A DNA stretch of 64,000 nt, from the NCBI RefSeq assembly GCF_000383915.1, contig NZ_KB912942.1, positions 1,000,506 to 1,064,505 on the forward strand, in the 5' to 3' direction. The position numbers were made by a program, and so were the translations under genes. Positions within the stretch are counted from its first letter, which is position 1. The number at the start of each line of letters is the position of its first letter. Source of the DNA: Amycolatopsis benzoatilytica AK 16/65 (GTDB lineage Bacteria > Actinomycetota > Actinomycetes > Mycobacteriales > Pseudonocardiaceae). Positions 1,123-55,037 of this stretch are shown one piece after another. The notes below the pieces were generated by a model. That model was not told the origin of the DNA. It ran no database searches and was given only the letters and a program-made list of their open reading frames with translations.

Positions 1123-1468
1123 GCCTCGCAGCACACCAGTTCGGCGGTTCCGGGGGATCCAACCGCGGCGGGATCGACCTCCCTCTCCGGAGGGAGGTCA
1201 CGTCTGGGCGGTGCCGGAAAGGTTGCCCTCGCCGGATCGAGGGCCGTGAAGGGCCCCTGCCGGAATCCAAGTCCCTCAAGGGCCCCTTGACGGCCGAGGG
1301 GCGACGGCGACGATCGAAGCACGACCGGGGCAAACGCCCGGTTTCACGCGAATCCGGCCCGGACCGCGCCGGGGGTCCTACTTTCGGACGTGGCTACGCC
1401 TGGAGTGAACTTCTAACGTCGTCGACCGTACAAAGGGTTGCTTGCTTTCCTGACCTACGGAGGACACG
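1123..1468. other. Intergenic region between divergent kinase and snapalysin genes
   Basis: These 346 bases hold one diverged copy of the window's ~50-bp hairpin repeat (1244-1293) and the snapalysin ribosome-binding site (GGAGG at 1459-1463). I see no credible gene; small frames here cross the repeat and have no family resemblance. Confidence 0.6.
1244..1293. repeat. Palindromic intergenic repeat, copy 1 (GGGCCCC arm type)
   Basis: Left arm CCGTGAAGGGCCCCT, loop region GAATCCAAGT, right arm CCCTCAAGGGGCCCCTT-like ending TTGACGG. The left arm has CCGG in place of GAGG, so the inner stem is imperfect. It lies between two divergent genes, where a terminator would have no obvious job. Confidence 0.8.
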
Positions 1469-2005
1469 ATGCATGCACGAGGGTTCGCGCGGATCGCGGC
1501 GCTGGCGATGGCCGTCGCCGCACCGCTGGCTGCCGCGCCGGCTGCGCTCGCCGCGCCGGCCGCGACGACCACGGTGTACTACAGCTCGGCTGGTGCGCCC
1601 GATTACGTCTCGCAGATCGACCAGGGCGCGGCGAACTGGAACGCGGCGGTCACCGACGTGAAGCTGGTCAAGGACGAGGGCCGCGCCACCGTGACCATTC
1701 ACGAGGTGCACAGCGGCGGCTCGTACACGCAGACCGACGGCCATGGCAACGGCGACGTCTACCTCGACACGAGCCAGGTCGCCGAGGGCTACGACCCGAC
1801 CCGGATCGCGGCGCACGAACTCGGCCACAACCTCGGCCTGCCGGACCACTACTCCGGTCCGTGCACCGAACTGATGTCCGGCCACGGCCCGGGCACCTCG
1901 TGCACGAACGCCAAGCCGGACGCCCAGGAGGCGGCGAAGGTGCAGCAGTTGTGGGCCAACGGCTTCCGGCCGCACGGCACCCGGGTCACCGTGACTGTCT
2001 ACTGA
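1469..2005 (+). CDS. snpA: Snapalysin family secreted metalloprotease (M7)
   Basis: 178-aa secreted protease. An N-terminal signal peptide (MHARGFARIAALAMAVAAP, then an Ala-rich stretch ending near AAPAA) is followed by a compact M7 domain with the zinc motif HELGHNLGLPD (H116, E117, H120, D126), the HExxHxxGxxD arrangement typical of snapalysin, and a downstream Met-turn-like CTELMSGH. Length matches mature snapalysin plus signal, with no long propeptide. The ATG is preceded by GGAGG six bases upstream. In Streptomyces snpA usually sits beside a divergent LysR gene, snpR; none is here. A strong hairpin follows the stop. Confidence 0.93.
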   Translation: MHARGFARIAALAMAVAAPLAAAPAALAAPAATTTVYYSSAGAPDYVSQIDQGAANWNAAVTDVKLVKDEGRATVTIHEVHSGGSYTQTDGHGNGDVYLDTSQVAEGYDPTRIAAHELGHNLGLPDHYSGPCTELMSGHGPGTSCTNAKPDAQEAAKVQQLWANGFRPHGTRVTVTVY

Positions 2006-2034
2006 GGACCGACAGGCACCGCGCAGGGTGTCTG

Positions 2035-2070
2035 CCCTGGCGGCCGCGGCCCGCCCCGCGGCCGCCAGGG
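2035..2070 (+). terminator. GC-rich hairpin after snapalysin
   Basis: A perfect 15-bp inverted repeat, left arm 2035-2049 (CCCTGGCGGCCGCGG) and right arm 2056-2070, with a six-base loop, 30 bases after the snapalysin stop. There is no T-tract, as is common for actinomycete terminators. Confidence 0.7.
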
Positions 2071-2168
2071 CCGCCCGCGTGCCGGTTCCCTCCCCACCAG
2101 AGTGTCAGAAAACCGGCTCCCCCTCCGGCGGGAGGCGTCGCGCCCGCCCGGCCTGCCAAGATTGTCCG

Positions 2169-3368
2169 GTGCGCATCCTCCGGCCGCTGATCAGCGGGTA
2201 CACCTATCGCCGATGGGTGTACTTCATCCTCGGCGCGGCGTTGAGCGTCCCGTACCTGCTGTTCGCGATGGTCGCGGTCCCGTCGGTGGTGCCCTATTCC
2301 ACGACCGTGTCGGGGGCGGGCCTGATCGGCTTGATAGCGACTGTCGCGGTACTCGCGGCGACCGCGTTCCTGCCCGCGGTCCGGGTACTCGAAGCCGCCG
2401 CGGTGCGCGAACTGCTCGGCCAACCGGCACCAGGACGCGGCCGCTTGCGGTGCGCCGGGATGTTCTCGCTGCACGTCGTGACCGGAGCGGTGATCGGCAC
2501 CGTGACGCTGCTGCTGCCAGCCGGTTTCGGGTTCGCCCTCAACGCGGTCTTCACCGGTCGGTTTATCGACAGTCCGCAGTTTCGCTTGTCCGTGCCGCGC
2601 GGCTGGGAGTCGGCGTGGTTGCCCGCTTCGTTCCTGGCCGCCTTCATCGGGCTGGTCTACGTCGTCTGGGGCCTCGGCGGGGTGCTGCGCCGCACGGCGG
2701 CCCGGTTGCTCGGGCTGTCCGCGGCCGAACGCATCGCGCAGCTCGAACGGCGCACCGAGCAGCTGGCCGAACGCACCCGGCTGGCCCGCGAACTGCACGA
2801 TTCCGTCGGACACGCGCTTTCCGTCGTCACGCTGCAAGCCGGGGCCGCCCGGCGGACGCTGCACACTGATCCCGGGTTCACCGAGGAGGCGCTCACCGCG
2901 ATCGAAGAGTCCGCGCGCACCGCGCTGGAAGACCTCGACCACGTGCTCGGCCTGCTGCGCGAAGAAGCGTCCGGCCGAACGCCGCAGTCCGGGCTCGCGG
3001 ACCTGCCCGCGCTGATCACCGCGACCAAGCAGGCTGGTGCCGATTGCCGGGCCGAGATGCGGGGCGACCTCGCTGCGGTGCCCGCAGTGGTGTCGCGCGA
3101 GATTTACCGGATCCTGCAGGAATGCCTGACGAACGCGGTCCGGTACGCCGGACGGGTGCCGGTGACCGTTTCGCTGGAAGTGGCCGGTTCGCGGCTGCAC
3201 GCGTCGGTCGTGAACCCGCTCGGCTCGGCACAGCCGTCCCGCGTGCGCGGCGGACGCGGCTTACGGGGCATGGCGGAACGGGCGGAACTGGTGGGTGGCA
3301 AGCTGTCCGCCGGGCCGGTCGGCGAAAACTGGGAGGTCGTGGTGACGGTGCCGTGGGGGAACCGGTGA
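2169..3368 (+). CDS. Sensor histidine kinase (NarL-system, HisKA_3 type)
   Basis: About 399 aa from a GTG at 2169; the frame is open further upstream but that extension overlaps the terminator hairpin and is Ala/Pro/Arg-rich without family character. Four to five membrane segments occupy residues ~10-185 (for example WVYFILGAALSVPYLLFAM), then a coiled linker, a HisKA_3 dimerisation box LARELHDSVGHALS with phospho-acceptor His about residue 210, and a short HATPase domain ending GGRGLRGMAERAELVGGKL. The N box lies in REIYRILQECLTNAVRYA. It overlaps the next gene by four bases (GTGA) and is its evident partner. The signal sensed is unknown. Confidence 0.9.
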   Translation: MRILRPLISGYTYRRWVYFILGAALSVPYLLFAMVAVPSVVPYSTTVSGAGLIGLIATVAVLAATAFLPAVRVLEAAAVRELLGQPAPGRGRLRCAGMFSLHVVTGAVIGTVTLLLPAGFGFALNAVFTGRFIDSPQFRLSVPRGWESAWLPASFLAAFIGLVYVVWGLGGVLRRTAARLLGLSAAERIAQLERRTEQLAERTRLARELHDSVGHALSVVTLQAGAARRTLHTDPGFTEEALTAIEESARTALEDLDHVLGLLREEASGRTPQSGLADLPALITATKQAGADCRAEMRGDLAAVPAVVSREIYRILQECLTNAVRYAGRVPVTVSLEVAGSRLHASVVNPLGSAQPSRVRGGRGLRGMAERAELVGGKLSAGPVGENWEVVVTVPWGNR

Positions 3369-4015
3369 GCGTGCGGGTCCTGCTGGTGGACGACGAAAGG
3401 CTGATCCGGGCCGGGCTGCGCGCGATCGTGGACAGCGAACCGGACCTGACCGTGGTCGGTGAGGCCGCGGACGGCGCCGAGGTGCCCGGCCTGGTCTCGA
3501 CGCTGGCGCCGGACGTGGTGCTGATGGACGTGCGGATGCCCGCGGTGGACGGGATCCGCGCCACCGAGCACCTGTTGTCCACGATGGACGAGCCGCCGAA
3601 GGTGATCGTGGTGACCACCTTCGAGAACGACGACTACGTGTACGACGCCTTGCGGGCCGGGGCGAGCGGATTCCTGCTGAAGCGGGCGCGGCCGGAGGAG
3701 ATCGTCGCCGGGATCCGCACCGTGCTGGCCGGGGACTCGCTGCTGTTCCCGGCGGCGATCCGGGGGATGGCGCAGCGGCGCGCACCGGTGCCGGATGTGG
3801 TGGCACCGCTGGATTTCCTGACCGAGCGCGAGCGCGACGTGCTGCGGCTGATGGCGGCCGGACTGTCCAATGGGGAGATTGCCGCGGAGCTGTATCTGGG
3901 GCTGCAGACGGTAAAAACGCATGTGGGGAATGTGCTGTCAAAGCTCGGTGCCCGGGATCGGACGCAGGCGGTGATCCGGGCGTACGAATCGGGCTTCGTC
4001 AAGCCGACCGGCTGA
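3365..4015 (+). CDS. LuxR/NarL-family response regulator
   Basis: 216 aa from a GTG that overlaps the kinase stop, meaning translational coupling. The receiver domain starts VRVLLVDDERL, with the phospho-acceptor D55 in VLMDVRMP and the switch Thr in VIVVTTFEND. A C-terminal LuxR-type HTH runs LTERERDVLRLMAAGLSNGEI...VKTHVGNVLSKLGARDR. It is the DNA-binding partner of the upstream sensor kinase. Its 3' end overlaps the convergent EAL/GGDEF gene by 17 bases. Targets are not evident; no transporter or resistance gene lies directly beside it. Confidence 0.93.
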   Translation: MSVRVLLVDDERLIRAGLRAIVDSEPDLTVVGEAADGAEVPGLVSTLAPDVVLMDVRMPAVDGIRATEHLLSTMDEPPKVIVVTTFENDDYVYDALRAGASGFLLKRARPEEIVAGIRTVLAGDSLLFPAAIRGMAQRRAPVPDVVAPLDFLTERERDVLRLMAAGLSNGEIAAELYLGLQTVKTHVGNVLSKLGARDRTQAVIRAYESGFVKPTG

Positions 4016-5678
4016 TCGCGACGTCGCGGCCGATGCCGCGGAGCACCTCGACCCGGTCGCTGCCCGGACGGCTGAGCACCCAGCTGGACCCGGGCACCGC
4101 CTTGGCCCGCTTCTTCAGCGGCGCGAGCAGCCGGGAAGCGTCCCGATAGGACGGAACGGCGCCGCTGCCGCACACCAGTGTCGCCAGGGAAACGGTGACC
4201 GGCATGCCTTCGGCGGACCAGTGCGTGTCGAGCAGGGCCGCGGCGACGGTGCCGATCTCGTCCACGTCGCAGACGATCAGGAAATCGTCGCCGCCGACGT
4301 GGCTGACCCGCATCCGCGCCAGCTTGCGCGCGAGATCGGTGAGGGTTTCGCCGAGCTCGCGGATCAGGTCGTCGCCCGCGGCGAACCCGGCGTTGTCGTT
4401 GACCGACTTGAACGCGTCGACGTCCAGCCAGGCCGCCACGAACTGCTCGCCGGTGGCGATCCGGCGTTCGACGTCGCGGGCCACCGCCTCGCTGCCCGGC
4501 AGCCGGGTCAGCGGACTGAGCGTGACCGCTTCCTCGACCTTCGCCTCCGCGACGCCGCGCACCACCTCGGTCACCAGCACGACGCCGAGGCAGCGTCCGG
4601 AAGCGTCGACGACCACCACGTCGTCGCCGGTGCGGCCCCAGTCGGCGTCGGTGACCAGTTCCAGGAACTCCAGCGCGCTCGCGCCGGCCTCGATCAGGTG
4701 CGGCTTGTCCGCCAGCCGCGCGGCGGAACGCTTGGCGTGCAGGGCATGCCCGTACGGGCCGGTGATGGTCACGAGGAACCGCGTGCGGTCGACCGACCAC
4801 TGTGGACGGTTGGCCGCGTCCACGCCGACCACGCCGCTCGGCGCGTCCGCCGCGGCGAGCACCTCGCGCACGTCGTCACAGGTCGCGTCCACCGGGAGGG
4901 TGGTGGCCGGACGCAGGAAGTCGCCGACGCGCGGGGCCTGCGGCGGCGCCGGGGTGCGCCGGTCGTCCGGGACGACCGCCCCGGCGGCGGGCGCGGACCG
5001 GTGCGCGGCGGGCGGCGCGAGCAGGTTGCCCTGCGCGATCCGGACGCCGAGGCTTTGCGCCGCGTCGAGCTGCGGCCCGGTCTCGATGCCGGTGGCGACC
5101 AGCCGGATGTTCGTGCGCGACGTGTAGTGCAGCAGCGCCTCGACGACCGCGACCGAGGCTGCGTCGTCCGGCAGCCCGCGCAGCACGCTGCGGTCCAGCT
5201 TCACCAGGTCCACGGGGGACTGGGCGAGCAGGGCGAGCGGCAGGTCGCCGCGGCCGAGGCCGTCGAGCGCGAGCCGGAAGCCCAGCTCGTTCAGCGCGCG
5301 CATGCCGGCCATCAGCCGCTCGGTGGGCAGGTGCGTGAACGGAGGCCCGACCTCGAGCACCACGTCGCGGGTGCGCCGCCCGGCCGCGCTGAGCTCGGCG
5401 AGCAGTTCGTCGAACGCCTCCAGCGGCGAGGCGAGCGTGCGGGCGGAAAGGTTGAGGTGCAGCGGGAGCGCGCTGGGCCGCTCTGCCTCCTGGCGCACCG
5501 CGGCGGCGGCGAGCCCCAGGTCTACTTCGGTGAGCCGGCCGGCTCGGCGGGCTTCGGCGAGGAGTTCGTGCGCGGTGCCCCGGCCCGGCCGGGCCAGTGC
5601 TTCGTACGCGACGACTCCGCCGGTGTGCAGGCTATACATCGGCTGGAAGGCGAATCGGACCGCACGCAGCGTCGTCAC
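3999..5678 (-). CDS. EAL - linker - GGDEF domain protein
   Basis: 559 aa with an unusual order: N-terminal EAL domain (1-230), a middle segment resembling a CBS pair (~255-370, with VDATCDDVREVLAAADAPSGVVGVD), and a C-terminal GGDEF domain (~385-540). The EAL motif is present (YEALARP), as are LHLNLSART and the VKLDRS Lys, but the metal-binding DDFG is LDGLG and AEGVE is VATGIE, so phosphodiesterase activity is doubtful. The GGDEF site reads VGGDDF with the upstream metal Asp in WLDVDAFKSVND; no clear RxxD I-site. It is probably a cyclic-di-GMP sensor or a weak cyclase. No transmembrane segment is seen. Confidence 0.88.
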   Translation of the reverse strand: MTTLRAVRFAFQPMYSLHTGGVVAYEALARPGRGTAHELLAEARRAGRLTEVDLGLAAAAVRQEAERPSALPLHLNLSARTLASPLEAFDELLAELSAAGRRTRDVVLEVGPPFTHLPTERLMAGMRALNELGFRLALDGLGRGDLPLALLAQSPVDLVKLDRSVLRGLPDDAASVAVVEALLHYTSRTNIRLVATGIETGPQLDAAQSLGVRIAQGNLLAPPAAHRSAPAAGAVVPDDRRTPAPPQAPRVGDFLRPATTLPVDATCDDVREVLAAADAPSGVVGVDAANRPQWSVDRTRFLVTITGPYGHALHAKRSAARLADKPHLIEAGASALEFLELVTDADWGRTGDDVVVVDASGRCLGVVLVTEVVRGVAEAKVEEAVTLSPLTRLPGSEAVARDVERRIATGEQFVAAWLDVDAFKSVNDNAGFAAGDDLIRELGETLTDLARKLARMRVSHVGGDDFLIVCDVDEIGTVAAALLDTHWSAEGMPVTVSLATLVCGSGAVPSYRDASRLLAPLKKRAKAVPGSSWVLSRPGSDRVEVLRGIGRDVAISRSA

Positions 5679-5798
5679 GGCGTCGATGGTCGCATCGGAA
5701 CCGGGCCGGGGAAACCGTTGTCAGCTGATGTTCACCAGCGCGGAACCTTTGCCACCGGATCGGAGCAGCGGGCCGTTTCCGATTGACCCGATCGGGAG

Positions 5799-5812
5799 CG
5801 GGAAAATTCCCG
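5799..5812. promoter_or_regulatory. Perfect 14-bp palindrome CGGGAAAATTCCCG
   Basis: It lies eight bases beyond the lycopene cyclase stop and about 120 bases upstream of the EAL/GGDEF start (both genes on the minus strand), next to a second small palindrome CCCGATCGGG at 5787-5796. It could act as an operator for the downstream gene or as part of a cyclase terminator. Confidence 0.35.
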
Positions 5813-5819
5813 GCGGCAA

Positions 5820-6923: not shown

Positions 6924-6961
6924 GCCGCGATCCTGCCGTACGGACGGATACCGTGTGACGC

Positions 6962-8524: not shown

Positions 8525-8566
8525 TATTCGGTTGCCTGGCCAGGGGCCGGGCCGCACGGTAGCCGG

Positions 8567-9064: not shown

Positions 9065-9182
9065 GCCGGCCGGTCGCCCGGGATGATCCCGGAGCCTGCC
9101 GTTCTCGTCACTGGCTGGCCGGGTAACGCCTGGGGCAGAGAAACTCGGCCAGCGACGGCATTGCCGGTGATCGAGCGAATGA

Positions 9183-13300: not shown

Positions 13301-13407
13301 CTGCGGTCCCTCCCCGGTTCGCCGACCCCGAACGGCCAGGCTACCGAGCGCGGCCGTGCTGCTTCCGACCGCCTGGGCCCCGTCGTGCCGGGGCCGCCCG
13401 GCGCGTC

Positions 13408-13459
13408 GGTGAAGGGCCCCTTGCCGGACTCGGATTCCGCCCGGAGGCCCTTCGCGGAC
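13408..13459. repeat. Palindromic intergenic repeat, copy 2 (degenerate)
   Basis: GGTGAAGGGCCCCTTGCCGG on the left and CCGGAGGCCCTTCGCGGA on the right, with loop ACTCGGATT. The most diverged copy in the window. It lies between the divergent membrane-protein and ABC-exporter genes (intergenic 13301-13576, in which I see no gene). Confidence 0.65.
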
Positions 13460-15442: not shown

Positions 15443-15484
15443 AGTGCCCGCCCGGCGGCGGATCGTCCGGCAACGGCTGTCGTT

Positions 15485-15602
15485 CCGTGAAGGGCCCCTT
15501 GCGGGAATCCAAGTCCCTCAAGGGGCCCCTTCACGGAATGTAAGTCCCTCAAGGGGCCCCTCACGGACTGCATGTCCGGCAAGGGGCCCTTCACGGACTT
15601 CC
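15485..15602. repeat. Palindromic repeat copy 3 plus two extra right-arm units
   Basis: One full hairpin (15485-15537, GGGCCCC arm type) followed by two ~30-bp units that repeat only the right arm: TAAGTCCCTCAAGGGGCCCC then CATGTCCGGCAAGGGGCCC, each ending CACGGA. It fills the gap between the convergent ABC exporter and SIS genes. Confidence 0.85.
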
Positions 15603-20246: not shown

Positions 20247-20324
20247 GGCCGCGAGGTTGACCTGTCGCGAATGCCGCGAGTCCTTCAAGACGTCTCTTGT
20301 GGACTAGCCGCTCCGGTGATGGTC

Positions 20325-20406
20325 CGTGAAGGGAACATTGAGGGACTCAGAGTCCCTCAATGTTCCCTTCACGACACCAGGCGTCCGTCAAGGCTTCCTT
20401 CACGGA
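20325..20406. repeat. Palindromic repeat copy 4 (GGAACAT arm type) plus a right-arm half copy
   Basis: 20325-20373 is a perfect inverted repeat: CGTGAAGGGAACATTGAGGGACT, central AG..., and the mirror arm. Both arms carry GGAACAT/ATGTTCC in place of GGGCCCC. A right-arm half unit (GTCCGTCAAGGCTTCCTTCACGGA-like) follows to 20406. Lies between convergent acetyltransferase and bcp genes. Confidence 0.85.
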
Positions 20407-20425
20407 CCGCTTAAGCCAACCCACG

Positions 20426-25836: not shown

Positions 25837-25859
25837 TCGAGTCACCTTGGCTTCGGGGG

Positions 25860-25910
25860 CCGTGAAGGACTCCTTGAGGGAATCTAAGTCCCTCAAGGAG
25901 TCCTTCACGG
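25860..25910. repeat. Palindromic repeat copy 5 (GGACTCC arm type) between nrdA and nrdB
   Basis: CCGTGAAGGACTCCTTGAGGG, loop AATCTAAGT, then the matching right arm with GGAGTCC. Perfect stem of about 20 bp. It occupies nearly all of the 85-base gap between nrdA and nrdB and would sit in their shared transcript. Confidence 0.9.
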
Positions 25911-25921
25911 CACGTCAGGGA

Positions 25922-28855
25922 TTACTGGCAGGCTTCGCAGTCGGGGTCGTCGATCCGGCAGGCGGCGCCCTCGGTCGCGACGAAGTCGACGTCGGTCTTC
26001 GGCATCTCCTTCGGCTCCGCCGGCACGGCCGCGGCAGGCGACGGCGCGGGGGAGGCGGCCGGGGCCGGAGTGGCCGCCGGAGCGGGGGCAGCCGGAGCCG
26101 GGGCGGCCGAGACGGCGTTCAGCTTGCCGTCGGTGCCGCGCAGGGTGCTCTTCTCCACGTGCGTCGCGGACTGCGCCCGCAGGTAGTACGTGGTCTTGAG
26201 GCCCTTGTGCCAGGCGTAGCGGTACAGCTCGTCGAGCTTGCGGCCGCTCGGCGCCGCGATGTACAGGTTCAGCGACTGCGCCTGGTCGATCCACTTCTGC
26301 CGGACCGAACCGGCGTCCACGATCCACTTCGACTCGATCTCGAACGCGGTCGCGTACAGCGCCTTCAGATCGTCCGGCACCCGGTCGATCTGGCCGAGGC
26401 TGCCGTCGAAGTACTTCAGGTCGCTGACCATGACCTCGTCCCACAGGCCGCGCGCCTTGAGGCTCTTGACCAGGTGCGGGTTGACCACCGTGAAGTCGCC
26501 GGACATGTTCGACTTGACGTACAGGTTCTGGAACAGCGGCTCGATCGACTGGCCGACGCCGGAGATGTTGGAGATCGTCGCGGTCGGCGCGATCGCCATC
26601 ACGTTGGAGTTGCGCATGCCGACCGTCTTGACCCGCTCGCGCAGCGGCGCCCAGTCCAGCGTGGTGGAGGTGTCGACGTCGAGCGCGTCTCCCTGGCGGG
26701 CGTCGATCAGCAGCTGCATCGAGTCGATCGGCAGGATGCCCTTGCTCCACAAGGAACCCTCGAACGACTGGTACTGGCCGCGCTCCTGGGCGAGATCGGT
26801 GGAAGCCGAGATCGCGTAGTAGGAGAGGTGCTCCATCGAGACGTCAGCGAACTTGACCGCTTCGGCCGAGGCGAACGGCACGCCGATCTCGAACAGCGCG
26901 TCCTGGAAGCCCATGATGCCCAGGCCGACCGGACGGTGGCGCAGGTTGGAGCGGCGCGCCTCCGGGATCGTGTAGAAGTTGATGTCGATCACGTTGTCGA
27001 GCATCCGGACCGCGGTGCGCACGGTCTTCTCGAGCCGCTTCGTGTCCAGGCCCTCGGGGGTGACGTGCTTGAGCAGGTTCACCGAGCCGAGGTTGCAGAC
27101 CGCGACCTCTTCGGTGTTCGTGTTCAGCGTGATCTCGGTGCACAGGTTGGACGAGTGCACGACGCCGACGTGCTGCTGCGGCGAGCGCAGGTTGCACGGG
27201 TCCTTGAAGGTGATCCACGGGTGCCCGGTCTCGAACAGCATGGTCAGCATGCGCCGCCACAGCTCGACCGCGCGGACCTTGCGGAACACCTTGATCTCGC
27301 CGCGCGCGGCGGCCGCCTCGTACTCACGGTAGCGCTGCGCGAACGCGTTGCCGTAGAGGTCGTGCAGGTCCGGTGTCTCGTTCGGCGAGAACAGCGTCCA
27401 CTCGGCGTTCGCCTCGACGCGGCGCAGGAACTCGTCCGGCACCCAGTTCGCGGTGTTCATGTCGTGCGTGCGCCGGCGGTCGTCGCCGGTGTTCTTGCGC
27501 AGGTCGAGGAATTCCTCGATGTCGACGTGCCAGGTCTCCAGGTACGCGCAGGCCGCGCCCTTGCGCTTGCCGCCCTGGTTGACCGCGACCGCGGTGTCGT
27601 TGGCGATCTTCAGGAACGGCACGACGCCCTGGGACTGGCCGTTGGTGCCCTTGATGTGCGCGCCGAGGCCGCGGACCGGCGTCCAGTCGTTGCCGAGGCC
27701 GCCCGAGTACTTCGCCAGCAGCGCGTTGTTCTTGTACGCCTGGAAAATCGAGTCCAGGTCGTCGTCCACCGTGGTGAGGAAGCAGGACGACAGCTGGGCG
27801 CGGTTGGTCCCGCTGTTGAACAGCGTCGGAGTGGACGCCATGAAGTGGAACGTCGAGAGCAGTTCGTAGAACTCGATGGCGCGGGCTTCGCGGTTGTCCT
27901 CGCGGATCGCCAGGCCCATCGCGACGCGCATGAAGAACGCCTGCGGCAGCTCGAACCGGACGCCGTTGTGGTGCTGGAAGTACCGGTCGTACAGGGTCTG
28001 CAGGCCGAGGAAGCCGAAGTCGAGGTCGCGCTCCGGGCGGATCGCGGCAGTGATCTTGTCCAGGTCGAACGAGGTCAGCTCGGCATCGACCAGTTCGAGC
28101 TCGACCGCACGGCGCAGGTAGGCGCGGAAGTACGGGGAGTACTCGGCGGCCATTTCGTCCTGGCTGGCCTGGCGCGGCGCGCCGGCGAGGTAGCTCAGCG
28201 CCTCGCCGCGCAGCTTGTCCAGCAGCAGCCGCGCGGACACGTACGAGTAGTTCGGTTCCTGCTCGACCAGCACGCGCGCGGCCATGATCTGCGCGAGCGC
28301 CAGCTCGTCGGCGCTGATGCCGTCGTAGAGGTTGCGCTTGGCTTCGGCCAGTACCGGCTCGGCGGCGACGTCTTCGAGCCCGGCGACGGCCTCGCCGACG
28401 ACGTGCGCGACGCGGGCCCAGTCGAGCGGACGCAGGGAGCCGTCGGCGCCCTTGACGTTCAGCGAAACCTCGGACGCGGACGGCGCGGCGGCTTCGCGGG
28501 CCTTCGAGCGCTCTTCGCGGTAAAGCACGTAGGCGCGGGCGACCTTGTGGTGCTCGCCGCGCATCAGAGCCAGCTCGACCTGGTCCTGGATCTGCTCGAT
28601 GTGCAGCGCGGTCTCCGGGCTGGAGTGGCGCAGCAGCGCCGCCTCGACCTGTCCGGTCAGTTCGGCGACGACGTGGTGGACGCGGGAGGACGCGGCGGCG
28701 TCGCCGCCCTCGACCGCGAGGAAGGCCTTGGTCAGCGCCACCGAGATCTTGCCGGCGTCGAACGGCGAAACGTTGCCGTCCCGCCGGATGACGCGGACCG
28801 CACTCGGGGCCCCCTCTGCCGCCGACGGCGGCCGCTGACCGGTTTCCACTGACAT
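25922..28855 (-). CDS. nrdA: Ribonucleotide reductase alpha subunit
   Basis: 977 aa from an ATG at 28855 with GGAG seven bases upstream. N-terminal ATP-cone (VRVIRRDGNVSPFDAGKISVAL) and a second cone-like segment (PLDWARVAHVVGEAVAGLED), then the catalytic barrel with LSSCFLTTVDDDL, SNLCTEITLN (active-site Asn, Cys, Glu) and an Ala/Pro-rich linker leading to a C-terminal CRIDDPDCEACQ tail with the redox Cys residues. Reduces NDPs in the cytoplasm with NrdB. Two ATP-cones are in keeping with class Ic partners. Probable NrdR sites lie ~140-190 bases upstream. Confidence 0.95.
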   Translation of the reverse strand: MSVETGQRPPSAAEGAPSAVRVIRRDGNVSPFDAGKISVALTKAFLAVEGGDAAASSRVHHVVAELTGQVEAALLRHSSPETALHIEQIQDQVELALMRGEHHKVARAYVLYREERSKAREAAAPSASEVSLNVKGADGSLRPLDWARVAHVVGEAVAGLEDVAAEPVLAEAKRNLYDGISADELALAQIMAARVLVEQEPNYSYVSARLLLDKLRGEALSYLAGAPRQASQDEMAAEYSPYFRAYLRRAVELELVDAELTSFDLDKITAAIRPERDLDFGFLGLQTLYDRYFQHHNGVRFELPQAFFMRVAMGLAIREDNREARAIEFYELLSTFHFMASTPTLFNSGTNRAQLSSCFLTTVDDDLDSIFQAYKNNALLAKYSGGLGNDWTPVRGLGAHIKGTNGQSQGVVPFLKIANDTAVAVNQGGKRKGAACAYLETWHVDIEEFLDLRKNTGDDRRRTHDMNTANWVPDEFLRRVEANAEWTLFSPNETPDLHDLYGNAFAQRYREYEAAAARGEIKVFRKVRAVELWRRMLTMLFETGHPWITFKDPCNLRSPQQHVGVVHSSNLCTEITLNTNTEEVAVCNLGSVNLLKHVTPEGLDTKRLEKTVRTAVRMLDNVIDINFYTIPEARRSNLRHRPVGLGIMGFQDALFEIGVPFASAEAVKFADVSMEHLSYYAISASTDLAQERGQYQSFEGSLWSKGILPIDSMQLLIDARQGDALDVDTSTTLDWAPLRERVKTVGMRNSNVMAIAPTATISNISGVGQSIEPLFQNLYVKSNMSGDFTVVNPHLVKSLKARGLWDEVMVSDLKYFDGSLGQIDRVPDDLKALYATAFEIESKWIVDAGSVRQKWIDQAQSLNLYIAAPSGRKLDELYRYAWHKGLKTTYYLRAQSATHVEKSTLRGTDGKLNAVSAAPAPAAPAPAATPAPAASPAPSPAAAVPAEPKEMPKTDVDFVATEGAACRIDDPDCEACQ

Positions 28856-30577: not shown

Positions 30578-30656
30578 CCCAATGTGGCATTGGGGGCATC
30601 TGACGCACCGAATGCCACATTGGGTGCATCCGACGCACCCAATGTGGCATTGGGGG
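30578..30656. repeat. Three near-palindromic units, 30-bp period, alternating orientation
   Basis: Units CCCAATGTGGCATTGGGGG (30578), CCGAATGCCACATTGGGTG (30608) and CCCAATGTGGCATTGGGGG (30638), spaced by CATCTGACGCA-like or CATCCGACGCA linkers. The middle unit is the reverse complement of the flanking ones. They sit exactly where the N-terminal part of the adjacent glyoxalase-fold gene should be. Confidence 0.8.
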
Positions 30657-30661
30657 CGGGC

Positions 30662-30925: not shown

Positions 30926-30935
30926 TCTGCTGCCT

Positions 30936-30984
30936 GTGAAGGACTCCTTGAGGGACTCAGATTCCCCCAGGGGGCCCTTCGCGG
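30936..30984. repeat. Palindromic repeat copy 6, hybrid arms
   Basis: Left arm is GGACTCC type (GTGAAGGACTCCTTGAGGGA) while the right arm is GGGCCCC type (CCCCCAGGGGGCCCTTCGCGGA), so the middle of the stem does not pair well. It looks like a junction between two repeat subtypes. Confidence 0.75.
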
Positions 30985-31034
30985 ACGTCGCACCGGGGCC
31001 GGGAGACCGGCCGGGTGGAGGCGAGAGGAAAAAC

Positions 31035-41812: not shown

Positions 41813-41968
41813 GAGAAGTGTCAAGGAATGACGGAGGACAGAAAAACACTCACTGCGGGAGCCGAGGTCACCGGACGATCCGGCGTCCCGGTGAGTGGGA
41901 CTCGGTGCCGCGGGCTGGCTTCTTAAAGCGTGTCTCAGGTGGCGCGCGCCGAACGGTCCGCTGGGCTG

Positions 41969-42021
41969 TCCGTGAAGGGCCCCTTGAGGGAATCCAAATC
42001 CCTGAAGGGGCCCTTCACGGA
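41969..42021. repeat. Palindromic repeat copy 7 (GGGCCCC arm type)
   Basis: TCCGTGAAGGGCCCCTTGAG, loop AATCCAAAT, right arm CCCTGAAGGGGCCCTTCACGGA. Stem nearly perfect (one CCCT-GAAG variant). Confidence 0.85.
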
Positions 42022-42054
42022 CAGGCTGGCACACTGGCCGCCCAGGCATCACTG

Positions 42055-49201: not shown

Positions 49202-50086
49202 ATGTCCACGACCAGTGCGGCCGGGGACCCCGACGGGTTCGAATCGTGGCTCCGGGGCCGGGTGCCCGAAAGGGGACTGCGGACCAAAGGCGCTTCCGTG
49301 CTCGAAGTACTGCTGACGCAGCCCCGGCGGGCCTCCTACAGTTCGGCTGCCGAGGCTGCCGACCTGGCCGGCGTCAACGTCGCGACGGTCAGCCGGACCG
49401 CGCAGGCCCTCGGCTTCCGCGGCTGGTCCGACCTGCAGCACGAACTGCGGGCGCGCTACCTGTCTTCGCTCAGTGCCCCGGACGTCGCCGCCGCGCAGCG
49501 CACCGACGGCGACCTGGGCACCGCGTCGCTGGGCCGGGACCTGGAATCGCTGGCCCTGCTGGCCCGCCGGCTGGACGAAACCCAGATCCGGGTGATCGCC
49601 GACGCGATCGCGCACACCCGGCGAACGCTGGTCGTCGCCAACGGCAGCTATGTCGCGGTCGGTTCTGCGTTGGGGCACAACGTGCGGCTCGCCGGCTACG
49701 ACGCCACCGTGGTGCGCGACGACGCCGACCTGGCCAACCACCTGTCGCGGATCGAACCCGGCGACGTGCTGGTCGCGATCAGCTTCTGGCGGCTGTATCA
49801 GAGCACGGTGACCGCCGCCGAGGAGGCGCACAGCCGCGGCGCCCGGGTGTTCGTGCTTACCGACGCGGCCAGCCCGGCGCTTGCCGCGGCCGCCGAGCAG
49901 GTCGTGCTCATCCCGGCCGAAGGAGTCGCGTTTTTCCCTTCCCTGGTACCGGGATTGGCGGTCGCGCAGGCCATCGTCGCGCATCTGTCCGCCCTCGACC
50001 CCGAGCGGACCCGCGCGTCGATCGAGGCAGCCGAGGCGCAATGGTCCCGCTTCGGGCTGATGCATCGTCAGCCGCGGCGCGGCTGA
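49202..50086 (+). CDS. MurR/RpiR-family regulator
   Basis: 294 aa from an ATG at 49202 with GAGAGG upstream. N-terminal HTH_6 (RTKGASVLEVLLTQPRRASYSSAAEAADLAGVNVATVSRTAQALGF) and C-terminal SIS domain (TLVVANGSYVAVGSALGHN, VLVAISFWRLYQSTVTAAEEAHSRG), the normal RpiR layout. The ligand is usually a sugar phosphate, though here the divergent amidohydrolase operon suggests another catabolite. The lipoprotein gene follows on the other strand eight bases away. Confidence 0.9.
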   Translation: MSTTSAAGDPDGFESWLRGRVPERGLRTKGASVLEVLLTQPRRASYSSAAEAADLAGVNVATVSRTAQALGFRGWSDLQHELRARYLSSLSAPDVAAAQRTDGDLGTASLGRDLESLALLARRLDETQIRVIADAIAHTRRTLVVANGSYVAVGSALGHNVRLAGYDATVVRDDADLANHLSRIEPGDVLVAISFWRLYQSTVTAAEEAHSRGARVFVLTDAASPALAAAAEQVVLIPAEGVAFFPSLVPGLAVAQAIVAHLSALDPERTRASIEAAEAQWSRFGLMHRQPRRG

Positions 50087-50093
50087 GCGCCGG

Positions 50094-50684
50094 TCACTGC
50101 GCGGACGCGCTCGCCAGCCCGCCGATCAGTTTCGTCAGATCCTCCATCGACGCGTCGGACCGTCCGAGCCGGACGACGAGCGTCGGGTATTCCGCCTTCG
50201 CTGGCTTGCTCAACGTGACGATCGCGATCGGCTCGTTCCACCGCTTGCAGCTGTTGGTGCACTCGTAATACTCCTGCGAGAACACCGCGGCCGGGCCGAG
50301 CTTGGTCTGCTGCTGGACGAGCCCGATCGGATGCGCGACGTCTTCGACGGTCCGGTAGATGCCGTGCCGGCCGTTGCCGATCTGCCTGTTCGCGTTGGGC
50401 GGGATGGTGCAGTTGCTCGCGACCGCCTCGATCGAGGTTTCGTTGCGCAGCGAGTAGCGCACTTGCGGACAGGGCGAGGTGTCGCCGGTGGCGCGCACCG
50501 TCTCGATGCCGACCCCCGGCTGGTCGATCTGCAGGCTGAACGCGAGTCGTCCGTCGACCACTGTCACCGAGGACAGCTCAGTGTCGGGATCGGCCGCGTT
50601 CGCGCAGCCGGTCAAGATTGTCGCGGACACGGCAGAGATCCCGACCGCGACGGCGAGTGTGCGGAGTCGGGGAGGAGTGGTCAT
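50094..50684 (-). CDS. Putative lipoprotein of unknown function
   Basis: 196 aa from an ATG at 50684. Lipobox ILTGCANA after a hydrophobic signal (LAVAVGISAVSATILTGC), so it is probably tethered to the membrane. Mature part has four Cys (PCPQVRY, NCTIPP, ECTNSCKRW) that could pair. No named family recognised. It lies five bases downstream of a TetR gene on the same strand and may be its target or an unrelated neighbour. Confidence 0.75.
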   Translation of the reverse strand: MTTPPRLRTLAVAVGISAVSATILTGCANAADPDTELSSVTVVDGRLAFSLQIDQPGVGIETVRATGDTSPCPQVRYSLRNETSIEAVASNCTIPPNANRQIGNGRHGIYRTVEDVAHPIGLVQQQTKLGPAAVFSQEYYECTNSCKRWNEPIAIVTLSKPAKAEYPTLVVRLGRSDASMEDLTKLIGGLASASAQ

Positions 50685-50689
50685 GCGCC

Positions 50690-51295
50690 TCAGACGGTGG
50701 TTCGCGCAGGGACGTTCCCGCGGTGAGGTTCTTCGCCCGGCCAGTTCGCCAGCGCGAAGTCCAGCACGTCCAGCGACCGGTGCCAGGACGCCTCGACGTC
50801 GCCGGAAAGGTCGAACGCGCCGGCTGCTTCCAGGCTGACGAACCCGTGCAACGTGCTGGAAAGCATTCGCACCGCGTGGTTCTCCTCCGGCTCCGCCAAT
50901 CCGTACGCGCGCAGCAGTGCCCTGGACATCCGGGAGTGCCGGACGGCCGCGCTGTTCGCGGCGGTTTCGTAGTCCAGCCGGAGCCGTGCGGCGGTGTAGC
51001 GCCCGGGATGCGCGCGGGCGTAGTCGCGGTAGGCGCCCGCGTATGCGACGAGCGCGTCTTTGCCCGAGCGCCCGGCGATCGCGTCGGCGACCTGGTCGGC
51101 CATCTCTTCCAGCGCGAGCAGGGCAGTCTTGACTCGCAGTTCGTCGATATTGCGCACGTGCGCGTACAAGCTCGGGACGGTCACGCCGAAGTGCCGCGCG
51201 ACCGCGGACACGGTCAGGTTGTCGAACCCGATCTCGTCCGCCATGTCCGCCGCCGCTGCGACCAGCCGCTCGACGGTCAGCCCAGCCCGTGCCAT
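50690..51295 (-). CDS. TetR-family regulator (WHG-type C-terminus)
   Basis: 201 aa from an ATG at 51295 preceded by GGAGCGG (a TTG four codons earlier is also in frame). HTH: LVAAAADMADEIGFDNLTVSAVARHFGVTVPSLYAHVRNIDEL. C-terminal half SSTLHGFVSLEAAGAFDLSGDVEASWHRSLDVL is the TetR_C_33/WHG layout. Divergent from the FBP protein gene; the 68-base gap has TTGCC-N11-GGCAA and the 12-bp palindrome GGCAAGCTTGCC, likely operators. Confidence 0.85.
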   Translation of the reverse strand: MARAGLTVERLVAAAADMADEIGFDNLTVSAVARHFGVTVPSLYAHVRNIDELRVKTALLALEEMADQVADAIAGRSGKDALVAYAGAYRDYARAHPGRYTAARLRLDYETAANSAAVRHSRMSRALLRAYGLAEPEENHAVRMLSSTLHGFVSLEAAGAFDLSGDVEASWHRSLDVLDFALANWPGEEPHRGNVPARTTV

Positions 51296-51327
51296 CGCCC
51301 GCTCCAAACCTAATACATTTAAGAATT

Positions 51328-51354
51328 TGCCATCTACCTATAGGCAAGCTTGCC
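51328..51354. promoter_or_regulatory. Candidate TetR operator: TTGCC-N-GGCAAGCTTGCC
   Basis: GGCAAGCTTGCC (51343-51354) is a perfect 12-bp palindrome, ten bases before the FBP ATG. TTGCC at 51328-51332 makes a second inverted pair with the same GGCAA, around CTATAG. Confidence 0.5.
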
Positions 51355-51363
51355 GTGCGAAGC

Positions 51364-51858
51364 ATGGAACCGATCGCCGAACACGTCCTCCGCGCGTCGT
51401 TCATCAACGCCTCGAAGGGCGAGGCCGCACGGATGAACCTGCCCCGCGACTTCGCCGAGACCGCCTGGTCTGACCTGGACTTTCTCGGCTGGCACGACCC
51501 TGGCGCGCGGGAACGGGCCTGGCTGGTCGCCGAGCGCGACGGGCAGGTCGTCGGGCTCTCGCTGCGAGTAGCGCCGCCGGGCTCCCGCGGGTTCACCGCG
51601 CGCAGCATGTGCTCGATGTGCCTGACCACGCGCACTGGTGGCGGCGTGACGCTGATGACCGCGCGCAAGACCGGCGCGGCCGGTCGCCGGGGCAACTCGG
51701 TGGGTCAGTATGTGTGCGCGGACTTGGCCTGCTCGCTGTACGTTCGTGGCCGGAAGCAGTCTGCGGGCGCGCAGTTCGACGAGGCGATGACCGTCGAAGA
51801 CAAGATCGCGCGGCTGCGGCTCAACCTCGAAGCGTTCCTGGACAAGGTCGCCGCCTGA
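51364..51858 (+). CDS. FBP-domain (FusB-like, EF-G-binding) protein
   Basis: 164 aa from an ATG at 51364. N-terminal helical half (EHVLRASFINASKGEAARMNLP) and a C-terminal four-Cys zinc finger, CSMC near residue 80 and CADLAC about 37 residues later, the organisation of FusB/FusC and related FBP proteins that bind elongation factor G and free it from stalled ribosomes. Actinobacterial members are mostly uncharacterised and do not all confer fusidic acid resistance. Ends one base before the convergent TetR gene. Confidence 0.85.
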   Translation: MEPIAEHVLRASFINASKGEAARMNLPRDFAETAWSDLDFLGWHDPGARERAWLVAERDGQVVGLSLRVAPPGSRGFTARSMCSMCLTTRTGGGVTLMTARKTGAAGRRGNSVGQYVCADLACSLYVRGRKQSAGAQFDEAMTVEDKIARLRLNLEAFLDKVAA

Positions 51859-52455
51859 TCAGCGGACGGCGGCTTTCAGTGCCGCTTCGATCGTGGTGGT
51901 CAGCACGTCGAGGTAGGCGTCGTCGCTGAGGTCGGCGGTAATCAGGATCCGGAATCCCAGCGGCGCGATCAGCAGGTCCGAGGCCAGTTCGAAGTCCAGC
52001 CCGGCGGGCAGCTCGCCGCGATCGATCGCCGACTGCAGCATCGCGCGCGCTACTGCCCGGCGCGGCCCGGCGACGTCGTGGCGCAGCACTTCGCCGAACG
52101 CGTCGGTCCGCCGGGATTCGGCAAGCAGGCCCGGACCGATCCGGTTGACCGTCGGGCCGGACAGCTGACCGCGCAGCGTGGCGAGATACTCGCGCAGGTC
52201 GGAGCGCAGGGAACCGGTGTCCGGGACGACCGGCAGGGTTCGTTCGACCGACTGCCGAACCAGTTCGGTGATCATCTCCAGCTTTGACGGCCAGCGCCGG
52301 TACAGCGCGGCCTTGCCGACCCCGGCGCGCCGGGCGATCGCTTCCATCGACAGCCCCGCGTAGCCCGACTCCGCGAGTTCGGCGAAGACCGCGTCGGAGA
52401 TCGCGTCCGTCACCCTCGACTGCAGCGTCTTGCCTGTTCCCCGCGTGGTTCCCAT
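51859..52455 (-). CDS. TetR-family regulator of the alpha/beta hydrolase
   Basis: 198 aa. HTH: RVTDAISDAVFAELAESGYAGLSMEAIARRAGVGKAALYRRWPSKLEM, with a TetR_C_16-like C-terminus (LRSDLREYLATLRGQLSG). Divergent from the alpha/beta hydrolase; the 105-base gap holds two GGAACG-N4-CGTTCC sites, so it probably represses itself and the hydrolase. Confidence 0.88.
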   Translation of the reverse strand: MGTTRGTGKTLQSRVTDAISDAVFAELAESGYAGLSMEAIARRAGVGKAALYRRWPSKLEMITELVRQSVERTLPVVPDTGSLRSDLREYLATLRGQLSGPTVNRIGPGLLAESRRTDAFGEVLRHDVAGPRRAVARAMLQSAIDRGELPAGLDFELASDLLIAPLGFRILITADLSDDAYLDVLTTTIEAALKAAVR

Positions 52456-52475
52456 CGCCGCATTCTAGCCCCAAC

Positions 52476-52537
52476 GGAACGGTTGCGTTCCGTTTGGTTC
52501 TGGTGCTAGCTTGCGACGAATGGAACGGAACCGTTCC
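52476..52537. promoter_or_regulatory. Two GGAACG-N4-CGTTCC operators
   Basis: Site 1 at 52476-52491 (GGAACGGTTGCGTTCC) and site 2 at 52522-52537 (GGAACGGAACCGTTCC), centres 46 bp apart. Site 2 extends to a 17-bp perfect palindrome AACGGAACCGTTCCGTT (52524-52540). They flank the two promoters. Confidence 0.85.
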
Positions 52538-52560
52538 GTTTCACTAGGAAGGGGACTGTC

Positions 52561-53709
52561 GTGAAGTTCCTCTACGAGGACGAGTCCTTCTCGTTCGAAG
52601 CCCTGCGCGCCGCCGGATACGCCAGCTACTCCGGCGCCGAGCTCGGCGAAGTCCTCGTCACCTGTCGCCGGATCCCGGAAGGCGACGAGGAAGCGTGGTC
52701 CGCGGAATGGGCGGCGACCGCGGCACGGGTCGAGCAGGTCGGGCGGGACGCGCTCGCCGCCGGGCACCGGATAAGCGCGCGCGAGGCGCTGCTGCGCGCG
52801 TCGAACTACTACCGGACCGCGGATTTCTACCGGCGGGAGGACCCCGCGAACGACGCCGAGTCCGCTCGCCTGGCCAAGTCGTCGCAGCAGACCTTCGCCG
52901 ACGCCGCCGCGCTGCTCGACCACCCCGCCCGCGCGGTCCGGATCCCGTATCGCGACACGACTCTGCCGGGCTACCTGTTCCTGGTCGACGACTCCGGCGA
53001 GCCCCGCCCGACGGTGCTCTACCACGGCGGCTACGACTCAACCCTCGAAGAGGACTACCTCGCACTGGCCGCCGGCGCTCTCCGGCGCGGTTACCACGTT
53101 CTCGCCTTCGACGGCCCTGGTCAGGGATCGACCGTGCGCGATCAGGGCCTGCACTTCCGTCCGGATTGGGAAGCCGTCGTGACTCCGGTGGTCGATTTCG
53201 CGCTCACTCTGCCCGAAGCCGACGTCACCCGGCTGGCCCTGATCGGCACCAGTCTGGGCGGCTACCTCGCCGCGCGGGCCGCCGCGTTCGAACACCGAAT
53301 CGCCGCCTGCGTGCTGCACGACGGGGTCTACGACGTCCACGAGACTTTCCAGGCGATCGCCGGCGGGGTCCTGGGCCCGCTGACGGCGCAGAGCCCGGGC
53401 GTGCGCTGGGCGGTCCGCAACGGCTTGTGGACGTTCGGCGTCGCCGACGCCGCGGCCTTGGTGCAGGCGGCCGAGGCGTACACGATGGCAGGCATCGCCG
53501 ACCGGATCACCTGCCCGACGTTGGTGCTGGACGCGGAAAACGACCAGTTCTTCGCCGGTCAGCCGCAACGCGTCTACGACGCGCTGACCTGCGAGAAGGA
53601 ACTGATCCTGTTCCGCGAAGCCGAAGGCGGCGGCGAACACTGCCACGAGGGCGCGATCGCGCAGTTCCACCAGTGCACCTTCGACTGGCTGGACACGGTG
53701 CTCAGCTGA
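52561..53709 (+). CDS. Alpha/beta hydrolase, FrsA/DPP-type
   Basis: 382 aa from a GTG. An N-terminal helical cap domain (1-125; FLYEDESFSFEALRAAGYASYSGAELGEVL) precedes the fold: YHGGYDSTLEEDY (oxyanion), nucleophile in LIGTSLGGYLAARA, acid in LDAENDQFF and His in EHCHEGAIA. Related proteins include dihydropseudooxynicotine hydrolase and tannase-like C-C hydrolases. Substrate unknown. Controlled by the divergent TetR. Its end overlaps the convergent VOC gene by eight bases. Confidence 0.88.
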   Translation: MKFLYEDESFSFEALRAAGYASYSGAELGEVLVTCRRIPEGDEEAWSAEWAATAARVEQVGRDALAAGHRISAREALLRASNYYRTADFYRREDPANDAESARLAKSSQQTFADAAALLDHPARAVRIPYRDTTLPGYLFLVDDSGEPRPTVLYHGGYDSTLEEDYLALAAGALRRGYHVLAFDGPGQGSTVRDQGLHFRPDWEAVVTPVVDFALTLPEADVTRLALIGTSLGGYLAARAAAFEHRIAACVLHDGVYDVHETFQAIAGGVLGPLTAQSPGVRWAVRNGLWTFGVADAAALVQAAEAYTMAGIADRITCPTLVLDAENDQFFAGQPQRVYDALTCEKELILFREAEGGGEHCHEGAIAQFHQCTFDWLDTVLS

Positions 53710-54142
53710 GCTCTTCGGCAAGCCCGACGACGATGCCCTCGGGCCCGCGCAGGTAGCAGAGCCGGAAGACGTTCTCGTAGTTTTCGACCGTGCCCACGAG
53801 CTCGGCCCCGTGCGCGCGCAGCCGGTCGAGGGTGTCGTCGAGATCGTCGACGGCGAACATCATCCGCCGCAGTCCCACCGTGTTCGCCGGTGCCTTCGCC
53901 GGCTGCGGGACAATCGCTTTCGGCTGCTGGAACTGAGCGAGCTCGACCCGCCCCGGCCCGTCCGGCACCCGCAGCATCGCGACCGTCTGCCGGACGTCTT
54001 CCAAACCGATGACCCGTTCCGCGCCCCGCCAGTCGAGCGGACCCCGGTTCTCCAGCTCCATGCCGAGCTCGACGAAGAACGCGATCACCGCGTCGAGATC
54101 CTCGACGACGAGCAGGACGTTGTCCATTCGCCGGAGCGCCAT
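53702..54142 (-). CDS. VOC-family (glyoxalase-fold) protein
   Basis: 146 aa, a complete two-module VOC fold: RRMDNVLLVVEDLDAVIAFFVELGMELENRGPL and a second module VGLRRMMFAVDDLDDTLDRLRAHGAELVG with LCYLRGPEGIVVGLAEEL. Glu/His metal-ligand positions are partly present, as in bleomycin-binding or glyoxalase relatives. Function not assigned. Unlike the truncated VOC remnant near 30.7 kb it has both modules. Confidence 0.85.
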   Translation of the reverse strand: MALRRMDNVLLVVEDLDAVIAFFVELGMELENRGPLDWRGAERVIGLEDVRQTVAMLRVPDGPGRVELAQFQQPKAIVPQPAKAPANTVGLRRMMFAVDDLDDTLDRLRAHGAELVGTVENYENVFRLCYLRGPEGIVVGLAEELS

Positions 54143-54192
54143 GGTCGGCCGCCTTCCTGTTCGGGAGCGTCCACAGTAGCCCGTCGTGGTCC

Positions 54193-54215
54193 CTTAGCAG
54201 TGCTATTCTTAGGCG
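54193..54215. promoter_or_regulatory. CTTAG half-sites upstream of marR
   Basis: Two CTTAG halves 18 bases apart (54193 and 54211), and direct GCTATT(T/C)CTT repeats follow. The same CTTAG half recurs at the MarR-type sites before the cupin gene, so this may be an autoregulatory region. Confidence 0.45.
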
Positions 54216-54237
54216 AAAGCTATTTCTTCAGGGGGCT

Positions 54238-54762
54238 GTGGCCATGGCGAAACGAACCGCGCCGGACGAAGTGGACGAGATGCTCGCGCAGTGGCGCGCC
54301 GAGGTGCCGGAAGTGGACACGTCGCCGCTGGCGGTGTTCGGCCGCCTGCACCGCTCGTTCGACCGGTACCAGCGGCAACTGTCCCGCGTGTTCGCCCGGC
54401 ACGGGATCACCGTCGCCGACTTCGGGATCCTGGCCGCCCTCCGCCGAGGCGGCGCCCCGTACCGGCGCACCGCCGGGGATCTGGCCGACACCAACCTGCT
54501 CACCACCGGCGGCATCACGCAACGAGTGGACAAACTGGTGCAGGCGGGCCTGGTCCGGCGAGAACGGGACGAGGACGACCGGCGGGTCGTGTTCATCGGG
54601 CTGACGGACGAGGGACTGGCCGCGACGGACAAGGTGGTGGAGGAGCACTTCCCCAACGAGAACCGGATGCTGGCCGGGTTGAGCCCGGGGGAGCGGGCGC
54701 AATTGGCGAAGCTGCTGGCCAAGCTGGAACAGTCGCTGGACGACGCCGAATCGGCTGAGTGA
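54238..54762 (+). CDS. MarR-family regulator
   Basis: 174 aa (GTG at 54238, or the ATG two codons later). Winged HTH: VFARHGITVADFGILAALRRGGAPYRRTAGDLADTNLLTTGGITQRVDKLVQAGLVRRERDEDDRRVVFIGLT. Helices flanking it form the dimer. Separated from the convergent aldehyde dehydrogenase by a repeat-filled gap and most likely controls the divergent dioxygenase cluster, since CTTAG-N2-CTAAG sites lie in that promoter region and CTTAG halves lie in its own. Confidence 0.88.
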   Translation: MAMAKRTAPDEVDEMLAQWRAEVPEVDTSPLAVFGRLHRSFDRYQRQLSRVFARHGITVADFGILAALRRGGAPYRRTAGDLADTNLLTTGGITQRVDKLVQAGLVRRERDEDDRRVVFIGLTDEGLAATDKVVEEHFPNENRMLAGLSPGERAQLAKLLAKLEQSLDDAESAE

Positions 54763-55037
54763 CTGCCGCTCGCTGCTGCCGCCCCGCACCCGCCGCTGCC
54801 GCCCCGCACCCGCTGCTGCCGCCGCTCGTCACCCGCATCTGCGCGCTGCTCGCCGCTGCCGCCCCGCACCCGCCGCTGCCGCCTGCTCGCCTGACGGCTG
54901 TGAAGGGCCCTTTGAGGGAATCCAAGTCCCTCGGGGGGCCCTTCACGGACTTCGCTGGCGCGGGAGCAACCCAACGATCTCCCCAGCGATCACCCCAGCG
55001 ATCACCCCAGCGATCACCCCAACGATCACCCCAACGA
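54763..55037. repeat. Low-complexity repeats flanking palindromic repeat copy 8
   Basis: 54763-54890: copies of a ~20-bp GC-rich unit GCTGCCGCCCCGCACCCGCC. 54900-54949: copy 8 of the hairpin repeat. 54967-55038: six units of a 12-bp repeat (CACCCCAGCGAT and the AACGAT variants) running into the aldehyde dehydrogenase stop codon. No gene in this gap. Confidence 0.85.
54900..54949. repeat. Palindromic repeat copy 8 (GGGCCCT arm type)
   Basis: GTGAAGGGCCCTTTGAGGGA, loop ATCCAAG, right arm CCCTCGGGGGGCCCTTCACGGA. The inner right arm has CGGG in place of CAAG. Confidence 0.85.

Follow-up and report, generated by a model that had tools for sequence, protein, structure and literature searches.

Probably mobile REP-like hairpins in the intergenic regions of Amycolatopsis, a genus in which no RAYT domain was found

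The window analysed here, 64,000 nucleotides from the 8.70 Mb chromosome of Amycolatopsis benzoatilytica AK 16/65 (C1:1000506-1064505), contains eight loci with hairpins of about 50 letters, and the question raised by these loci is whether such hairpins are mobile repeats or elements with a function of their own at the ends of genes. The favoured answer, with a probability of about 0.57, is that they are non-autonomous, dispersed mobile palindromes which resemble the repetitive extragenic palindromic (REP) sequences, are copied or converted in trans without a REP-associated tyrosine transposase (RAYT), and are tolerated at gene 3' ends. All eight loci named in the initial annotation carry hairpins of the kind described there, and the three arm subtypes it distinguished, GGGCCCC, GGACTCC and GGAACAT, are all seen among them. 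Four of the loci match exactly the strict pattern CGTGAAGG-N20..45-CCTTCACG, which has no match in 100 dinucleotide shuffles, whereas those at 1243, 13406, 30934 and 54898 hold imperfect copies. A profile search yields 11 hits across the eight loci because one of these (15484-15598) is an array of three and another (20322-20407) combines one strong and one weak copy. An Rfam search of the window produced no match at gathering scores. The hairpins, which are given without strand, and the two genes adjoining one of them are as follows.

1243..1293, hairpin of the GGGCCCC subtype, imperfect, between co-directional genes
13406..13459, degenerate hairpin with a GGGCCCC-like left arm, between divergent genes (script gene calls)
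15484..15598, three overlapping units in an array, GGGCCCC subtype, centres 34 and 42 bp apart, in a convergent gap
20322..20373, perfect hairpin of the GGAACAT subtype, in a convergent gap
20381..20407, weak half-copy adjoining the 20322 hairpin, profile score 15.3 bits
24763..25836, minus strand, nrdB (PF00268), downstream neighbour of the 25859 hairpin
25859..25911, perfect hairpin of the GGACTCC subtype, in the nrdA-nrdB gap
25922..28855, minus strand, nrdA (PF02867), upstream neighbour of the 25859 hairpin
30934..30986, imperfect hairpin, left arm GGACTCC and right arm GGGGGCC, co-directional setting
41968..42022, hairpin of the GGGCCCC subtype, co-directional setting
54898..54950, imperfect hairpin with GGGCCC-type arms, convergent setting

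As initially annotated, the hairpins occur in all three gene contexts: three are convergent (15484, 20322, 54898), four co-directional (1243, 25859, 30934, 41968, the 25859 copy lying between the PF02867 and PF00268 genes) and one divergent (13406), according to script-made gene calls supplemented with the open reading frame (ORF) 7-1113 that the script missed.

The excess of copies predicted for the genome is found. There are 297 strict palindromes, compared with none for the reversed pattern. In the contiguous 864 kb formed by the window and the segments L031-L070, the profile identifies 109 copies at the cut-off of 12 bits or higher, whereas reversed DNA yields none at 8 bits or higher. Gene calls by the same script (773 genes, 87% coding, with at least the ORF at window 7-1113 missed) place 107 of the 109 copies between genes. 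These are far from evenly distributed: 49 are convergent, 50 co-directional and 8 divergent, compared with 20.8, 56.7 and 29.5, respectively, expected from usable intergenic length (chi-square p 1e-12, the copies within arrays not being independent). Among the gaps of at least 60 bp, hairpins are present in 34 of the 68 between convergent genes, 37 of the 209 between co-directional genes and 8 of the 122 between divergent genes; the occupied convergent gaps number 37 when all lengths are counted, three being shorter than 60 bp. Hairpins in co-directional gaps lie at a median of 70 bp from the preceding stop and 200 bp from the next start. This concentration at gene 3' ends is compatible with a function there as well as with survival at sites where insertion is least harmful. 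One array of hairpin units, at L041:9386-9522 (positions 273386-273522 of the contiguous stretch), contains N letters, hence its sequence is uncertain.

The distribution of the hairpins among genomes is highly uneven. Palindromes with the foot CCGTGAAGG, here denoted family A, number from 0 to 599 in 60 Amycolatopsis genomes, several of which have only 0-3 copies, and the counts of family B (CGTGAGTG) range from 0 to 495; further palindrome families are present in the genus. In 143 genomes of the same taxonomic family outside the genus, the top family A counts are 43, 21, 12, 11 and 9, with 0-4 in the others; the closest relatives of the NrdB protein (97-99% identity) come from Amycolatopsis. 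The GGAACATT subtype, which is that of the GGAACAT hairpin at 20322, is represented by 61 copies in the AK 16/65 genome and by none in the 59 other Amycolatopsis genomes.

Orthologous sites differ in their content as well. Searches for orthologs in 400 kb each of two relatives, G012 and G026, placed 28 and 32 of the 109 copies, respectively. The gap at stretch position 95136 holds a different hairpin subtype in each of the three species; in G026, the 20347 site is taken by an unrelated palindrome family and the 25885 site is empty. The nrdA-nrdB gap was compared in AK 16/65 and 44 of 80 loci, with Nocardiopsis-type outgroups and two loci of short length excluded: among these 45 genomes, 25 have no hairpin in this gap, 17 have a CGTGAG-type hairpin, 2 a family A hairpin and 1 another hairpin. 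On the tree of the flanking genes, the nrdA-nrdB hairpin needs 8 presence changes, 7 of which are forced by well-supported branches, and AK 16/65 and A. circi have the nrdB-side flank in common and different hairpins. Part of this incongruence could be due to the entire region having been exchanged between species. Hairpin sites gain, lose and switch hairpins between species, and this turnover, together with the lineage-specific GGAACATT subtype, supports the mobility that had been suggested from the window itself.

It had also been claimed that the two arms change together so that the stem is preserved, and this statement stands for part of the stem: the outer arm is matched, whereas the inner stem and the apex are mixtures of half-types. 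Covariation within the genome was assessed in 64 copies selected for a length of exactly 49 nt and for perfect 8-bp feet, 58 of them distinct; the feet are fixed by the search pattern, so that their invariance in this set is a matter of the choice of rows. In this set, 93.1% of the cells are paired, compared with a shuffled mean of 88.0, and 52 cells are changed on both sides, compared with a shuffled mean of 18.7, neither value being reached in any of 500 shuffles; 8 pairs show a two-sided change, a number that 31 of the 500 shuffles reach. The signal sits in columns 10/40, 11/39 and 13/37, with 48-49 of 54 paired against shuffled means of 29-31. Cleaner evidence comes from the comparison of a close pair of species, G019 and G076, in which 25 of the 31 hairpin sites were mapped. 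In five family hairpins of the same length picked from the mapped sites, 8 of 109 pairs differ, 3 by a one-sided and 5 by a two-sided change, and all five two-sided changes are paired in both species; independent mutation would be expected to give 0.39 two-sided changes. A sixth same-length site, counted apart, shows a block switch of inner pairs, with one pair changed on one side and six on both sides, five of the latter paired in both species; among the remaining mapped sites are a half-decayed copy and some that lack a counterpart.

Under the mobile-palindrome reading, the hairpins would be copied or converted in trans by machinery that is no RAYT or Y1 transposase in any of the searched genomes. 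Such machinery would probably recognize the hairpin in its folded form or else the palindromic duplex, read at the foot, and recognition of this kind would keep the arm changes matched. Subtypes expand by lineage, copies would survive purifying selection mainly downstream of genes because insertion there would be least harmful, and the hairpins in turn are landing pads for insertion sequences (IS), including an IS110 element with matching bridge-RNA guides.

Several observations weigh against this reading. No mobilizer came to light: the RAYT domain PF01797 is found in none of 36 Amycolatopsis genomes, AK 16/65 included, with 5 of 14 control genomes positive, so that RAYT is rejected as the mobilizer, and 8 of the 21 non-IS genes that lie between hairpins less than 2.5 kb apart were tested as candidates for a hidden mobilizer, all of them proving ordinary. 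Among 18 GGAACA-type copies, there is no consistent target-site duplication, the best flank matches being of 2-4 bp at varying offsets, with one of 6 bp, and no clean pair of a filled and an empty site was seen at the base level. The copies of the young subtype could, in part, be conversions of existing hairpins. Furthermore, because the signal is limited to the three column pairs named above, the within-genome covariation mainly amounts to one contrast, between GGAAC and GGCCC arms, inherited by many copies. In columns 16-18 and the apex pairs 22/28 and 24/26, pairing is at or below the shuffled means, with no covariation; therefore, the stem is not matched along its whole length.

Outside the feet, the 18 copies share no common motif. 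A search of plasmids and phages with one 49-nt hairpin copy gave no match at E 0.01, and nine IMG/VR contigs that match a degenerate half-pattern are regarded as chance matches, none continuing into a hairpin within the next 40 bases.

An alternative that appears unlikely, albeit with several points in its favour, is that the hairpins are functional 3'-end elements, selected at the RNA level because they terminate transcription or block 3' exonucleases, the sequence being free to vary as long as the stem pairs. The strong excess in convergent gaps, the proximity to the upstream stop in tandem gaps, the matched arm changes between species and the presence of unrelated hairpin families in the same gap of different species would all be in line with such a function. 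The composition of the hairpins and their flanks speaks otherwise. In the 86 of 109 copies with a stem score of at least 9, no T-tract follows the 39 co-directional ones (T at 69 of 429 positions downstream versus 61 of 429 upstream), and mismatches in the transcript direction include 34 G-U versus 24 A-C, a G-U excess that is not significant (p = 0.24); these counts do not support selection on RNA pairing, nor do they exclude it. In a gap-by-gap test against G012 and G026, hairpin presence is not significantly shared (82 and 114 of 265 gaps mapped, small numbers), so that sharing fails as a proof of function. In addition, the absence of a nrdA-nrdB hairpin from 25 of the 45 genomes counts against such a function, and the sequence-specific burst of one subtype is left unexplained. 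The initial conclusion that the hairpins are not simple terminators holds, but not the argument from their varied contexts, because the bias to gene 3' ends is strong; the missing T-tract, the lack of a significant G-U excess and the turnover of sites are better reasons.

Template switching within a palindrome can copy one arm onto the other. The arms might thus be symmetrized by mutation rather than by selection, with the apparent compensatory changes being single events, an explanation of the family that is rather improbable on its own. It agrees with the pairing in both species of all five two-sided changes between G019 and G076, alongside three one-sided ones, with the block switch at the sixth site, and with the lack of a significant difference between G-U and A-C mismatches. 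However, it gives no account of new copies, the subtype burst or site turnover, and columns 16-18 are still mismatched in 13-21 of the 58 copies. Template switching is compatible with the spread of mobile palindromes and may explain only the matched changes.

The relationship between the hairpins and IS elements can be gleaned from three IS genes that lie inside split hairpins in the 864 kb, namely, an IS110 element, an element with a DDE_Tnp_1_4 domain and an IS481-type element (L059:17309-18387). These belong to different families, with 3, 1 and 1 full-length copies in the genome, respectively; they were detected because they split hairpins, and the rest of the genome is an independent test. 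The IS110 recombinase carries PF01548 and PF02371, and two further identical copies each reside in a hairpin of another subtype, at the same point, the insertion in all three being after CAGATTCC. In the 240-nt leader of this element, AGATTCC and TTGAGGG fall on opposite sides of a predicted internal loop (joint chance in leader shuffles, 0.0008); the two motifs are guide-like and are placed as the left and right target guides of IS621, as defined in PMC11208160. No hairpin halves adjoin two distant IS110 matches in the genome, of which one is 37% identical and the other broken. Between the halves of the hairpin that it splits, the DDE_Tnp_1_4 element is bounded by terminal repeats of its own, and a 5-bp TCAGA duplication was read by eye. 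The two halves around the IS481-type element, of which a single full-length copy is left, belong to different subtypes, which suggests recombination between hairpin-borne copies.

IS110-like loci were also collected from relatives, 29 in all, with the best match taken from each genome (L278-L306). Those of G007 and G076 (L287 and L288, 37-38% identity) interrupt a different palindrome, the insertion point following GCGAAAGCCACT. In G076, the leader of the element contains the 10-nt GAAAGCCACT, found in 5 of 20000 shuffles, and its right guide has a match of only about five bases. For the other 27 loci, many of them distant or partial, the 700 bases preceding the match and the 500 following it contain no inverted flanks of this kind. 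The AK 16/65 hairpins are landing sites for an IS110 element, the leader of which carries matching guide-like motifs.

Half-hairpins around three IS genes, along with a palindromic structure with conserved feet, might also be expected if the hairpins were miniature inverted-repeat transposable elements (MITEs), left behind when an IS lost its interior, the two arms being its terminal repeats. This origin is very unlikely: the three IS belong to different families and are rare, and given that the DDE_Tnp_1_4 element has its own terminal repeats within the hairpin halves and IS110 enters at one point, both were inserted into existing hairpins. Finally, the hairpins might be bound by a nucleoid or regulatory protein that recognizes an inverted repeat in the CGTGA foot, which would account for the similar feet of families A (CGTGAAGG) and B (CGTGAGTG), but this appears highly improbable given the depletion between divergent genes, the several Amycolatopsis genomes with nearly no family A copies and the origin of the foot invariance in the choice of rows by the pattern.

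Comparison with known systems places the hairpins close to REPs, which are short intergenic palindromes with many copies, several families per genome and a preference for gaps downstream of genes, convergent or co-directional (PMC3733652), and which serve as IS110 targets (PMC11208160). The Amycolatopsis hairpins resemble REPs and REPINs in copy number and intergenic location, in the presence of several families per genome, in their scarcity between divergent genes and in being targeted by IS110. Because RAYT is absent (no PF01797 gene in the 36 genomes) and the foot is paired, so that an unpaired GTAG or CGTC tag is lacking, they are called REP-like here and are not counted among the REPs as these are described in PMC3733652 and PMC2817692. 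The CGTC-tagged REPs, mostly from alpha-Proteobacteria and apparently without a dedicated transposase according to PMC3733652, are likewise high-copy palindromes without an assigned mobilizer; they have short stems of 8-9 bp, a terminal CGTC and an unpaired tail, whereas the Amycolatopsis stems are about 20 bp long, with neither the tag nor the tail. With MITEs, the hairpins share small size, non-autonomy and conserved ends but differ in the lack of a consistent target-site duplication in the 18 copies, and no parent IS is seen, though no genome-wide search for one was made. The similarity to IS110/IS621 (PMC11208160) lies in the PF01548 and PF02371 recombinase, the single insertion point in a palindromic repeat and the leader loop matching both sides of the target; the differences are that the target is another repeat class and that two Amycolatopsis IS110 elements match two different palindrome families. 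Among the matches listed, no open-access title or abstract opening describes the Amycolatopsis family.

REPs have been described mainly from Proteobacteria and explained through RAYTs (PMC3733652, PMC2817692). Recently amplified, high-copy palindromes in a genus in which no RAYT was found suggest another route of spreading, for the tracing of which many Amycolatopsis species are available. With the hairpins, the adaptation of bridge-RNA guides to a changing target can also be followed in a natural setting. A broader proposal, tentative at this stage, is that several mobile palindrome families of Amycolatopsis spread outside the RAYT system and replace one another at orthologous sites, tracked by IS110 guides that have diverged to match the abundant family of the host.

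Some other palindromes were encountered along the way. Window positions 30578-30658 hold a copy or an array of an unrelated palindrome family (CCCAATGTGGCATTGGG...), which is also present elsewhere in the 864 kb and forms arrays in G026 at sites holding family A in the AK 16/65 genome. The hairpin TGTTTGCGTTAAGTGAC... at L032:1531-1577 (positions 85530-85577 of the contiguous stretch) lies in a divergent gap, has counterparts in G012 and G026, and is possibly a regulator site rather than a repeat. An inverted repeat at 52473-52540 of the window, with the arms AACGGAACGGTTGCGTTCCGTT and AATGGAACGGAACCGTTCCGTT, is located upstream of the gene called at 52561 and may be an operator.

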